From NCBI GenBank assembly GCA_964019415.1, contig OZ025875.1:8305517-8369516 (forward strand): a stretch of 64,000 nucleotides of DNA, in the 5' to 3' direction. This document shows positions 1,397 to 63,811 of this stretch, piece by piece (positions within the stretch are counted from its first letter, which is position 1; every line of letters starts with the position of its first letter). This stretch comes from Ianthella basta (Eukaryota > Porifera > Demospongiae > Verongiida > Ianthellidae). Under the pieces are notes generated by a model, which ran no database searches, was not told the DNA's origin, and saw only the letters and a list, made by a program, of their open reading frames with translations. A program made the translations under genes and the position numbers.

Positions 1397-1450
1397 CACA
1401 AAGTTCTATCTCTCCAGATCAAGCAGTGGATCAGCACGCTGGAGCAGGAG
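1397..1450 (+). pseudogene. Relic of MAAKYIEG-gene exon 2 (unit 0)
   Basis: The sequence matches the exon end encoding KVLSLQIKQWISTLEQE with its donor (GAGGAG|GTATGT) seen in units A, B and C. In unit 0 an in-frame TGA at 1394-1396 lies just before it in the KDNK frame. Similarity to the other units stops about 45 bp past the donor, marking the breakpoint of a deletion that removed about 4.4 kb including exon 3, the tetraspanin and the first NLR exon. Confidence 0.6.
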
Positions 1451-1693
1451 GTATGTTTAGCACACACATCATTGCACTGCATGATGGTGGATCTTGTATG
1501 AGTTTACTTACAGTATACAGCTCATACGTATGTGTGTGTTCTGAGTGGATGATATGAAATGACAGCACATGAGGAAATGCGTGGCACATGTCCACAACTG
1601 GTCCTGTACGTATGTTTAGAGTGCATGTTGTGTTGAGAGAAGTGACTGGTGGTACTCTTGCTCTCCTGCTCTGTGCCCTTGTCTTCTCAACAG

Positions 1694-4600
1694 ATCGTCC
1701 CATGAGTCGATGGAACCTTGATGCGCTGGTCTCCCTGCAAGGGGACCTCAAGCTGAGGGTATTAATGAGCACAGGACTGAGGGATAAGTTACAGACAGCC
1801 GCTGGTGGGTTTATGAGTGAAGCAGAAGAACAGCAAGTGAGAAATCAGCATGGTGACAATGAACAGATGGGCAAACTCCTCGAAATACTGAAAGGAAAGC
1901 AAGACAAGGACTTTGTTATCTTCTTAGAGATGTTGCGAAGTGCCAACTATGGAGTGTGGGCGGATGAACTGGAGAGAAAGGCAGAAGAGTTCAAAAAAGT
2001 GAAAAGTGAGTTGTTCAGTCAATTTGTGTTGTGTGTTGGGAAAACGTTGGAGTATACGAGTACTCTTTGTAGCTGTCTGGGCTACAACACGTTAATCACT
2101 GGCAATAGAGAGGTTAAGATCAACATTAACGCTGAACGTTGAATGGTCATGTGACCCGAGAGATGACATCAACATTCACCGTGAGAGACTGTGTTGAAGT
2201 TAAGATCAACGTAAACGTTCGACAAAATGGCGTTTCAGAGTAAGCGTGTTTCTTAAGAGTTGGGTAGCTGCGTCTTTTCTCCGCTGTTAAACGCTCTTGA
2301 TGGTGATTCCCTATATTCTAGAAGCGATCCGAGTGATCTGGATGTGGCTGGGATCGACATTCATCGGCCATTCGGATTTGTCCTGCAGCGAGGAAGATGA
2401 CTTAGAACTCTGCCCTTCTTATTCAGATACTACAGATATCAAACTAAACCTGGAAACTCACGAAACGTTGAATAGAAACGGACAAAGAAAGAACTCACCG
2501 GAATATGCTTATGGTGGAACATGGTTCCAGGTGTACAAAACATTAAAATTTCACCGTGTACATTATCCGCAGAGGGTTTCACGTGATGATTTATGACGTC
2601 AACGTTCACCGTAAACGTTGATCTTAACCTCTCTAATATATTGCCACCACGTTTTGGGGGCTTTGAACGAAGTATAGTATAGGCTGCTCACCAGACCCTA
2701 TTCCTACCGAACAAGGGCTTCAGCATGTAAGAATGGCGGCAGAAATAGCAGTTGGCTATGTGAGTCAGACTATAGACTCTCTCTCTCTCTCCTTCACTCT
2801 GTAGCTGACAGAGGGGGATGTGATGGAGGGCCAGCCTCACCAACCAGTAGAGAGAAGCAAGAGGTGAGCCTACTGAAGTATGGGCCATAGCTGGGTGTGG
2901 TGTGTGTACCTCTTCATTGTCTTGAAACTGACGGGAAAAGTGTCTGTAAATGTGCATTCTGTCCTCAGCCATGCACTGCTCAGCCTGCCCACATGTCAGT
3001 CATGGATGTGTGCTGTACAGAGCTGTACCAGAGCATGATGCACGACGCAGTGCTTATTGGGGTGAGCGAAGCGAAGCCCCTCTCTTCTGGGTGGTGCAAA
3101 ATCCGGAAGTTTGGTACGTCACGGTTGCGCAATAGTTTTTGGTACGTCGCGGTTGTGCAATAATTTTCGGTACGTCGCGGTTGCGCAATACTTTACCTTA
3201 TATGGAACATTCGCTGCATTGCGCAATAGTTTGGGGGTTGTCGCGTGTTTGCGCAATCGTTTACCATCTTTGGTACGTAGTCAAGGTCTCTTACGCTTGC
3301 TTGCTACAGCAGCCTCTGTGACGGGCTACTTTTGTCTCTTGCGCTGGTGCAATTACGCAGTCTCTGGTGCCGGCTTTCAGTGTACTCTTCTGCTGGACAG
3401 GTGACTGTCAAGATAGTGAAGGTGAACTGGCCGGTTTAGCCATACAAGGACTGTATGGGCCAGGTGGGAGGTGTGCTGTTGCTTTGATAGTTAAGTTCTC
3501 TTACTCTTGCTGGCTATATTATGGAATTGGGCAATATTTAGCACATCGCAGCTGCCAGTTCCTGGCTGTTCAGATGTACAGTTGATTTCAGAATGACTGG
3601 CCAACATGGCAAATGACGTGATGTCACAGCAAATGGCAATACTGAACAATAGGCGTGATGTAATAGCAAGCAGCAAAACTACTAGTGACGTCACGCCATT
3701 TGGCCATTCTACCATTTGCCATTTTGGCCAACCATTCTGAAATCAGCTGTAGTCTCCGTCATACCCAGACCCCACCCATCTGCCCGCCGGCAATATTATT
3801 ATGACAGCATGGGCTACAACTAATTTCTAACTAAATCCTGATTGCAATTGTACGCATGTGTGCATGTATGTTCTTGATAATAATAAAACATAAAACCATT
3901 GAGGACAAAACCAAAATAAACTTCCCGCTCACCCCCACAATGCCTTGCATTCGTCTAGTATACTGTCATTTAGCCTTTTCAATTTCCTGGTTGTACTTCC
4001 CTGCATGGTGTGTCGTATTTCTGGGGGGTGTCCAGAGTATTTCCTTAGTTTTACGTGATGGTGTATATACATGTATGTGTGTACATGTTTGTGTGTTGTG
4101 ATATTATTAGGTTGTATCTGGTTGACTTTGTCTGCTTTGTGTTGCAGTCCCTCCGTGCCAAGCTGGGCAAGTACTATTCCAAGGGGTGTATCCAAGACAA
4201 CCCTCTACTGGCCTCTTCCACCATGCACTATGTCAACCTGAATTTGGTGCACCAAAAACAGCAACGCCCGGTAGCAGGGAGGGTTGACGAGGCAGTATCC
4301 GTACACCTGGCCAGGGGAGGTGTTGAACAGGTGCCTCACGAGAAGGTGCCACTCGACTACGAACACATCCTCTCCTTCTCCCCTCCTGATGGTATCTCCA
4401 GACAGCGGGTGCTCATCGAGGGTGTACCGGGTAGTGGCAAGAGCACTCTCGTCCAGCGAATGTGCCACGATTGGTCGGTTGGCCGTTTTGCACAGGACTA
4501 CAAAGTAGTCATCCAAGTAACCCTGAGGAGCCTCTCCAAGGACCAGAAGCTGAGCCTGGAAGACCTCATCTTCACATCAGTCGGGGATGCAGCTATCGTT

Positions 4601-62700: not shown

Positions 62701-63056
62701 GTCAGTGTGTGGTAGTGTGGATTGGCCTCATACCCTTTTGTGTACATGTGAAGGAAGGTCTGGTACGTGCATACTGCTTGCACTGTGTGGCATTCACAAT
62801 CCCACAGAAAACAGTGGAGCCTCTGCACATGTGCACACAGTAGGTACCAGGCTGTCCTTCCCGCCCCCACACAATTACCAGTGCACAGGAATGAGGCTAG
62901 TGATGAATGTGTGGTAGTGGGCATGCAAGTGATCAGGAGGGAGTGATTTAGGGCAAGACTGACGTGGCGCTAGGGTGTCAGGTGACATGTCACATGTGTG
63001 TACTGTGAGTGACAGTCACTTGTCACTATTTGTATGCAGGCATCAACTACTTGTAG
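53761..63056 (+). CDS. NLR4: complete CARD-NACHT-LRR receptor, 1244 aa
   Basis: Exons 53761-54058, 54822-55133 (CARD, B type like NLR1), 56020-56078, 56462-58145 (NACHT), 58609-58721, 58940-59000, 59338-59504, 59602-59776, 60318-60478, 60922-61099, 61410-61591, 62154-62481 and 63040-63056 join in frame (3735 nt). The start MGQKFSSW keeps Gly2 and Ser6 for N-myristoylation. The NACHT exon begins FLRAKLG rather than SLRAKLG and has Walker A GVPGSGKST and Walker B intact. The first LRR exon carries an in-frame 9-bp duplication (EHTEHTKD). The split codon before the last exon is T|GC, so the protein ends CINYL. Its first exon is of the common type, but its CARD and the introns up to NACHT are like NLR1, so the gene looks recombinant. 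Confidence 0.9.
55306..55853. mobile_element. MITE with captured acidic segment (NLR4 intron)
   Basis: Copy of the element at 2106-2635. The internal frame here is longer: DPSDLDVAGIDVQLPLYDHD continues into SEEDDLNLCPSD and TDIKLNLETHE. Confidence 0.65.
60732..60795. repeat. Conserved hairpin in LRR intron (NLR4)
   Basis: Same hairpin as at 8373 with a one-base shorter loop. Confidence 0.8.
61107..61240 (+). repeat. (GT)n/(GCGT)n microsatellite in LRR intron (NLR4)
   Basis: GT run with a GCGT block, about 130 bp. Confidence 0.95.
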
Positions 63057-63663
63057 CCTCCCAAGACACACCCCCTGACCTGGTGAGTTGAGCGGTGTCC
63101 CAACCTCCTCTTGTCCCTGTGCTGGTCACATGACCCAGACAGAGGTAGTGGGTGCACACATTGATCCATTTGTCATGTGTCCTCCCATTTCATGTCCTTA
63201 CCCACAACATGTCTCTCCACTCCACAGGACTCCACTCTCCTCTCATGTCTGCACAACAAACTGAAAGATATTTACAACTAGTGTTTTGTTCATAGTATAA
63301 TTAATTACACAATTACACAATTATAACTAGTTTATTGACATGTCTGTGTGTTGTAGCTAGCTAGGGTAGGCTGTAATGTATATGTTATATGCATATACAC
63401 AGCAGCACACTTTGTATACACTTGAAGTTAATTTCAACTCATGGTCATTTGTACAGTTAGATTTTGCAAGCGAATGTTCGAATTCTTAATTAAAGTTTGT
63501 GAATAATGGAATCAGATAGTCGCGCATGTATATGGTCATCGACCTGAGAAATCCGGAAATCTATCTTTAATTTCTGTACGTACGTCGACTGGTAGTCCGC
63601 CATTTTCTAATTAACCGGAAACCACCTTACGTGCACTTGTCCTGAGAAGACCTCCCCGCGACA
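63057..63663 (+). other. NLR4 3' region and kinase promoter (unit D)
   Basis: Same layout as 11301-11914. The last part reads ACCACCTTACGTGCACTTG, slightly diverged from the other units just before the kinase start. Confidence 0.5.
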
Positions 63664-63811
63664 ATGTTCATCTCGCCCCACTGGAGGACATGGCGGAGCA
63701 GAACGGACTGGCCTACTCTCAACGGACGTATGACAGCGCTAGGAAGGCGAGGATAACGTCAGAGAACTTCTATGACAACCTTCTTGTTCACTATCGCGAC
63801 AGGAGTAACAG
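63664..63811 (+). pseudogene. NDR/STK38-type kinase exon 1, unit D, frameshifted
   Basis: The start MFISP is kept, but one A is missing in CGCCCCACTGG (CGCCCCAACTGG elsewhere), so the frame is lost after Pro5. The exon is 148 bp against 149 in A and C. The window ends in the following intron. Confidence 0.75.

Follow-up and report, generated by a model that had tools for sequence, protein, structure and literature searches.

The sponge Ianthella basta carries, within a 64-kb window of its genome (the whole stretch analysed here, C8:8305517–8369516, from an assembly of 209 Mb in 96 contigs), four NLR units arranged head to tail. They are interpreted from their sequence as a tandem clustered library of CARD-NACHT-LRR receptors, apparently diversified by duplication, exchange, cassette swap and selection, and the probability of this reading was put at roughly 0.8. 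Three full units and part of a fourth were recovered by self-comparison, with a period of 16.7–18.0 kb. A head-to-tail array with these periods had been claimed in an earlier note on this DNA and was confirmed as real by self-BLAST of the window, which returned co-linear direct matches of kilobase length, mostly at 90–96% identity and far beyond chance, with offsets of about 16.5–18.6 kb between neighbouring units. In the four-unit alignment, the identity in 500-column windows was mostly 0.91–0.99, and some unit pairs dropped to 0.54–0.83 upstream of the NACHT exon.

The NLR Gene Model

The exons of the NLR gene are ordered, 5′ to 3′, as a CARD exon, a short linker exon, a NACHT exon and six LRR exons. 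The features from the linker onwards are the following.

39035–39093, plus strand: short linker exon of unit 3, between the CARD and NACHT exons, phase 1-0, boundaries set by eye
4148–5816, plus strand: NACHT exon of unit 1, bounded by AG and GT
21744–23430, plus strand: NACHT exon of unit 2
39653–41321, plus strand: NACHT exon of unit 3
56462–58145, plus strand: NACHT exon of unit 4
6964–10719, plus strand: LRR exons of unit 1, mapped at 6964–7127, 7947–8119, 8566–8725, 9651–9826 and 10384–10719; exon 2 not exactly mapped
24622–24788, plus strand: LRR exon 1 of unit 2
24886–25105, plus strand: LRR exon 2 of unit 2
25646–25818, plus strand: LRR exon 3 of unit 2
26265–26436, plus strand: LRR exon 4 of unit 2
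26691–26872, plus strand: LRR exon 5 of unit 2
27432–27767, plus strand: LRR exon 6 of unit 2, including the stop codon
42473–45818, plus strand: LRR exons of unit 3; exon 5 acceptor CG, exon 6 out of frame
59338–62489, plus strand: LRR exons of unit 4; exons 2 and 3 not exactly mapped

The four NACHT starts given in the earlier note proved right, AG preceding each of them. The NACHT exon was identified by Pfam (PF05729, E 5e-27), and its best match in the PDB was NLRP3 (E 3e-21). Unit 2 can be read as one open frame from the NACHT acceptor to the final stop, over seven exons with coherent phases. Thirteen splice sites were readable in 8–11 of the 11 units projected onto unit 2, and only two cells deviated in total, namely the exon 5 acceptor of unit 3 and the exon 6 acceptor of the unit labelled 8395. 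When nine units were tried, the lengths of the LRR exons differed by multiples of three in 5/5, 7/7, 9/9, 9/9 and 7/8 cases for exons 1, 3, 4, 5 and 6, respectively. None of the 11–12 copies of each of LRR exons 1–5 was broken, and the NACHT exon matches were free of stops in 47 of 52 cases family-wide and in 18 of 18 on C8. The NLR copy of unit 3 is probably damaged, because its exon 5 acceptor reads CG and its exon 6 is out of frame. Twelve LRR strand motifs, recognised by eye with no Pfam LRR match behind them, displayed a regular pattern of variation.

Selection on the NACHT, CARD and LRR Codons

Silent and replacement variants were compared with a random placement of the same base changes, the copies being BLAST matches that cover at least 80% of the exon at 85% identity or higher. 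The ratio of replacement to silent variants (N/S) of the NACHT domain was 0.41 of neutral, and that of the remainder of the NACHT exon 0.80; by these counts, the NACHT domain is under purifying selection. The two types of CARD exon gave 0.60 (type II, 7 copies) and 0.44 (type I, 4 copies, p = 0.098). The six LRR exons, taken singly and in order, gave 2.24, 2.12, 2.40, 2.09, 1.01 and 1.33 times the neutral value, and pooled they reached 1.59 (N = 214, S = 53, expected S 75.5, p under 1/4000). The excess was most marked in the five codons that follow each six-residue LRR strand motif, with a ratio of 3.32 (N = 93, S = 8, expected S 22.4, p under 1/4000), and the remaining LRR codons were close to neutrality with a ratio of 1.13 (N = 121, S = 45, expected S 49.1, p = 0.27). 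Offsets picked on exons 1–3 held on exons 4–6, where 2.88 against 1.48 distinct residues were found, a difference reached by none of 10,000 permutations; one of the motifs was left out of both the offset test and the five-codon test. On this comparison among paralogues, the post-motif codons, whose predicted position is on the surface of the protein, are under diversifying selection.

Exchange between Units and the CARD Cassette

Linkage between variants was evaluated for 10 of the 11 projected units (the partial first one being omitted) at biallelic sites with a minor count of at least 2, 313 in the unit and 296 of them in its first 6.2 kb. The mean r2 was 0.276 below 25 bp, 0.123 at 300–1000 bp and 0.119 beyond 1 kb, with a permuted level of 0.118, and the short-range excess was reached by none of 60 site-order shuffles. 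Variants in different units are nearly unlinked beyond 100–300 bp, and the units therefore exchange short tracts, the decay being consistent with short gene-conversion tracts or with repeated unequal exchange. The projection onto unit 2 biases nearest-neighbour tables towards that unit.

The CARD exons of the four genes belong to two types.

1696–2001, plus strand: CARD exon of the unit 1 NLR gene, type II, a phase 1-1 exon
20027–20341, plus strand: CARD exon of the unit 2 NLR gene, type I
38338–38652, plus strand: CARD exon of the unit 3 NLR gene, type I
54824–55126, plus strand: CARD exon of the unit 4 NLR gene, type II

The exon is symmetric (phase 1-1) and belongs to a large family, with at least 150 matches listed among 335 candidates. 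In the C8 array, 5 CARD exons are of type I (96–100% identical to that of unit 3) and 12 of type II (56–61%). The distance between NACHT exons in nine units was independent of the CARD type, with values of 0.0755 for the same type and 0.0712 for different types (p = 0.705). The fold model of the CARD exon best matched the CARD of Apaf-1 (TM 0.77/0.85, best Foldseek E 0.0022), and nearly all of the 50 Foldseek rows shown were CARDs or designs on a CARD, Apaf-1 being the first, so that the N-terminal domain is assigned as a CARD by its predicted fold. A signal peptide on this exon was considered and rejected: the stretch resembles one in the type I copies, but not in four of the six type II copies, which are in another frame or carry stops there, and type II has a plain acceptor; the putative signal-peptide stretch was for these reasons taken as intron. 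Among the 150 listed relatives of the CARD exon, 51 (51–64% identical) lie at C4:4.07–12.7 Mb, where no NACHT occurs among the scored matches, and these are possibly another CARD gene family.

Extent of the Array

Ten NACHT exons stand on the same strand of C8, from 8235515 to 8397340, and eight of the nine intervals between them measure 15.3–18.6 kb, the first being about 23 kb. Downstream of this run, six NACHT exons lie on the opposite strand, followed by two on the first strand. The ten-unit run holds no N apart from 5,000 bases adjoining the window on the left. Gaps of 200 N were found at C8:8235317–8235516 and at C8:8440517–8440716; since the latter separates the two strand groups, the strand inversion may be a scaffolding effect. 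At 81% identity or higher, the NACHT exon family occupies at least 52 places, 18 on C8, 20 on C5, 10 on C4 and one each on C2, C10, C11 and C20, a lower bound, as 76 of 437 first-look NACHT candidates were scored. The next NACHT group follows at 60–66% identity.

The spacers are in register as well. Runs of a 10-mer (10721, 27768, 45819 and 62490), of CTCCC (13527, 30490 and 48199) and of GT (14267, 31297 and 48985) align between units, as the earlier note had stated for microsatellites. One miniature inverted-repeat transposable element (MITE) occurs in unit 2, its site being empty in units 1 and 3.

31992–32696, strand not assigned: young MITE, among units 1–3 private to unit 2, flanked by a TA target duplication and with inverted ends

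The earlier view that a large block was copied rather than a gene alone is sustained insofar as the NLR gene, a kinase 5′ part, a second small open reading frame (ORF) and the spacers were copied head to tail. It needs amending in that the units are no longer independent copies, linkage being near background beyond about 300 bp, and in that the two divergent CARD types are untied to the NACHT backbone. The note did not mention the diversifying selection on the LRR part.

The Kinase Relic

Behind the LRR exons, each unit carries the beginning of an NDR (STK38-like) kinase gene.

11915–12064, plus strand: NDR kinase relic exon 1 of unit 1, in frame
13617–13940, plus strand: NDR kinase relic N-lobe exon (exon 4) of unit 1
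28954–29107, plus strand: NDR kinase relic exon 1 of unit 2, with a 4-nt insertion and frameshift
30627–30953, plus strand: NDR kinase relic N-lobe exon of unit 2, best PDB match STK38
31159–31220, plus strand: shared-deletion scar of unit 2, where NDR exon 5, with HRD, and the first part of exon 6, with DFG, are gone; exon 6 remnant at 31221–31289
46994–47143, plus strand: NDR kinase relic exon 1 of unit 3, in frame
48330–48656, plus strand: NDR kinase relic N-lobe exon of unit 3
63664–63812, plus strand: NDR kinase relic exon 1 of unit 4, with a 1-nt deletion

The earlier note had placed kinase starts at the first positions of these four exons 1, and exon 1 does align there. It had also named a kinase as passenger; the first exons and an exon 6 remnant exist, but they are all that is left in the window, and they form a relic rather than a working gene. 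Exon 1 occurs in all four units and the N-lobe exon, with its glycine loop, in units 1–3; unit 4 runs off the window, and no N-lobe exon was listed for it in the genome search. Relic exon 4 is 75–77% identical to human STK38 (PDB 6bxi), and in comparison with STK38/NDR1 the window copies have lost exon 5, the beginning of exon 6 and all subsequent exons. The match of unit 2 to the full NDR gene stops just short of exon 5 and picks up again within exon 6 past the DFG, with 456 parent bases gone. The same scar was found in all 11 examined copies that have exon 4 (9 in a 250-kb region and 2 others, from roughly two dozen relic places in the genome), and no HRD, DFG or APE pattern was found in the 250 kb. 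A working passenger kinase is ruled out by the loss of the catalytic loop and DFG in these copies. A further candidate, in which the kinase exons would begin the next NLR gene, was unsupported; the small ORF described below, CARD-a, has its own ATG.

Neither of the two NDR genes on C5 has the scar. One of them, at C5:10.670–10.676 Mb, is the single NDR gene of the genome with ordered match blocks from end to end and no stop; it follows the final scored NACHT of a C5 run on one strand, that NACHT match being partial (residues 1–466 of 574); the other, at C5:8.24 Mb, is decayed, with a stop and a 4-nt insertion. Since one deletion is common to every examined copy with exon 4, the kinase was most likely broken before the block was amplified, and an NLR gene beside an already cut NDR gene probably seeded the C8-type block; alternatively, the scar may have spread between copies by exchange. 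A shared scar of this kind is a marker for tracing the spread of the block. One C8 relic region retains a piece of a later NDR exon (C8:8528461–8528634), and a kinase match on C21 is presumably LATS.

The CARD-a Reading Frame and Other Features

15100–15497, plus strand: CARD-a ORF of unit 1, with frameshift and stop
32831–33235, plus strand: CARD-a ORF of unit 2, intact, predicted all-helical at low confidence
49839–50236, plus strand: CARD-a ORF of unit 3, with frameshift and stop

CARD-a, so named by eye, is intact in 4 of 10 copies of the 250-kb region, and its variants (N/S 0.49 of neutral, p = 0.003) show past constraint. The model is helical with a mean pLDDT (predicted local distance difference test) of 66, the other four models reaching 42–45, and a profile search of the PDB gave only chance-level matches. 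The donor of the ORF is in phase 0 and so incompatible with a direct join to the CARD exon, and a stop and AATAAA follow the ORF in most copies; for these reasons CARD-a may be a separate one-exon gene, the other possibility being the first exon of the next NLR gene. Six copies (44–49% identical) lie within 8 kb at C5:9567727–9575626, a cluster which suggests that the ORF can stand as its own gene.

Further observations in the window concern repeats and a possible gene. A GT microsatellite of 782 bp (8735–9516) lies in unit 1 between its LRR exons 4 and 5, and the long open frames on both of its strands look spurious. An 18-bp repeat at 942–1374, in 24 copies, codes for QGQQAV-like repeats within the open frame 847–1557 and has a short counterpart near 33553–33786 in unit 2. 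A conserved GC-rich stretch at 36880–37311 has a codon-like pattern on the minus strand; this candidate gene looked coding by that pattern and had no Pfam match.

Proposed Mechanism and Alternative Explanations

On the favoured reading, the block that was duplicated head to tail measured about 17 kb and comprised a single NLR gene and, from the adjacent NDR kinase gene, a 5′ part most likely broken beforehand. The product of each gene would be an NLR that binds a ligand of its own through the LRR surface, oligomerises through the NACHT domain and recruits a partner through the CARD. Unequal crossing-over would set the copy number, conversion would create new LRR combinations and cassette exchange would couple the sensors to one of two CARD outputs, with the kinase fragment as non-functional baggage.

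Several points weigh against this reading. Only in unit 2 could the exons be joined into a complete open frame; in the eight further units exon 2 was not exactly mappable, and leaving it out costs some of them their phase, giving 25 stops in unit 1 and 22 in unit 3. In one of two splice-site readings, an exon 4 donor was CG. The LRR exons have no Pfam match, and their strand motifs were chosen by eye with offsets set after the variation had been seen, a concern that the held-out test answers in part. The N and S counts are of unique variants among 11–12 paralogues and do not form a tree-based test; LRR exons 5 and 6 alone do not exceed neutrality, exons 1–4 singly have p values of 0.045–0.068, and the ratio of 2.18 for exons 1–4 together belongs to a set chosen post hoc. 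The CARD falls below the cut-off by sequence (Pfam E 0.033, PDB profile E 0.034), its Foldseek E value is no better than that given above, four of five models have pLDDT values of 45–54, and the evidence for the proposed link between CARD and NACHT consists of phase and spacing. Of 10 CARD-a copies, 6 are broken. Finally, the kinase exon appears constrained when the two C5 genes are included (N/S 0.50 of neutral, p = 0.025).

Other explanations were weighed against the same evidence. That the units are haplotypes, scaffold errors or collapsed repeats is very improbable. The small contigs C51 and C95 have match values identical to those of places on C4, and some haplotigs may therefore remain; moreover, 200-N gaps flank the ten-unit run, the strand change spanning one of them. 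Nevertheless, the units are neighbours on this assembly, as the earlier note had held: the window holds no N, the mean difference among nine units is about 7% in the NACHT part and 4% in the 3.2 kb that follow, exon lengths differ, one MITE is private, and no other scored NACHT exceeds 95% identity to unit 3. A field of mostly decaying pseudogenes, with NACHT exons kept open by conversion from a few active genes, would account for the broken CARD-a copies, the decayed kinase relics and the lost exon 5 acceptor and shifted exon 6 of unit 3. This was judged unlikely, given the unbroken LRR exons 1–5, whose lengths vary by threes, and the selection on LRR codons.

The hypervariable LRR codons could also reflect a mutational or conversion hotspot instead of selection, since several of the hypervariable sites lie near exon ends, where length changes cluster too. 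Such a hotspot is improbable, because silent changes are equally frequent inside and outside the post-motif codons (8 in 53 codons against 45 in 317, or 0.15 and 0.14 per codon), whereas post-motif codons show 4.6 times the replacement change of the other LRR codons; the silent count there is, moreover, far below the neutral expectation. For the kinase fragment, a function as decoy or bait was considered, in which a truncated NDR protein with the N-terminal region and N-lobe would act beside the NLRs. A precedent for an NLR-NDR partnership exists in mammals, where NLRP12 binds STK38 according to the covered part of the source (PMC10541192). The N-lobe exon is near-identical between copies, donors are kept after kinase exon 1 (9/9 readable) and exon 4 (7/7), and the constraint seen with the C5 genes points the same way. 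This explanation is nonetheless extremely unlikely: ATG and frame are both kept in only 2 of 10 exon 1 copies of the 250-kb region, an AG acceptor precedes exon 4 in 6 of the 8 readable units, stops occur in 2 of 10 relic exon 4 copies, and the ten relics alone gave 0.73 of neutral (p = 0.29).

Comparison with Known Systems

In plants, the highly variable NLRs (hvNLRs) are defined by diversifying selection on LRR surface residues, located around the LRR strand, and by high variation between individuals of a species, and the first of these traits is seen here among paralogues, at motif-defined codons; plant NLRs have plant domains in place of NACHT and CARD and a separate origin. Plant clusters such as RPP8 share with the present array tandem paralogues and intergenic exchange, in the part of the source covered (PMC6771003). 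The zebrafish NLR-B30.2 genes, as far as the covered part of PMC4852459 describes them, share a large clustered NACHT-LRR family, gene conversion unequal across gene parts, group-specific N-terminal domains and interspersed genes of other families. A bias to chromosome ends is reported for them, and the C8 cluster is likewise within 0.5 Mb of the end of its contig; positive selection in zebrafish was reported in B30.2 and not in the LRRs, whereas here the selected sites are in the LRRs. No B30.2 turned up in Pfam scans of the ORFs, in which no search was aimed at B30.2.

Among invertebrates, the covered parts of a paper on the sponge Dysidea avara (PMC12909245) and of a review (PMC7308585) describe NLR expansion with CARD, DEATH or no N-terminal domain and near-identical neighbours on one chromosome, and the review links LRR polymorphism of invertebrate NLRs to recognition. 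Unlike here, no block, cassette or codon-level pattern is described in those parts; the main text of the Dysidea paper does not contain the terms tandem, gene conversion, positive selection or hypervariable, and its two mentions of kinase are unrelated. In the literature searched, no paper was found that joins NLR with NDR or STK38, gene clusters and sponge. In literature on NLR selection, conversion and LRRs, covered as titles and abstract beginnings with many subscription papers outside that scope, none was recognised for this combination. The system is known in kind from plants and fish, and its combination is possibly new.

It is an open question how animals that have no antibodies maintain sufficient receptor diversity; a single array here combines duplication, tract exchange, cassette exchange and site-specific selection, and its candidate contact residues can be given codon by codon. 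More tentatively, and at rather less than even odds, the array may be a germline combinatorial library, with a hypervariable plant-style LRR surface on animal-type NLRs, short-tract reshuffling and a CARD wired independently through the phase 1-1 cassette. If this is true, it would be an NLR system that recombines its sensor and effector halves separately at the DNA level.

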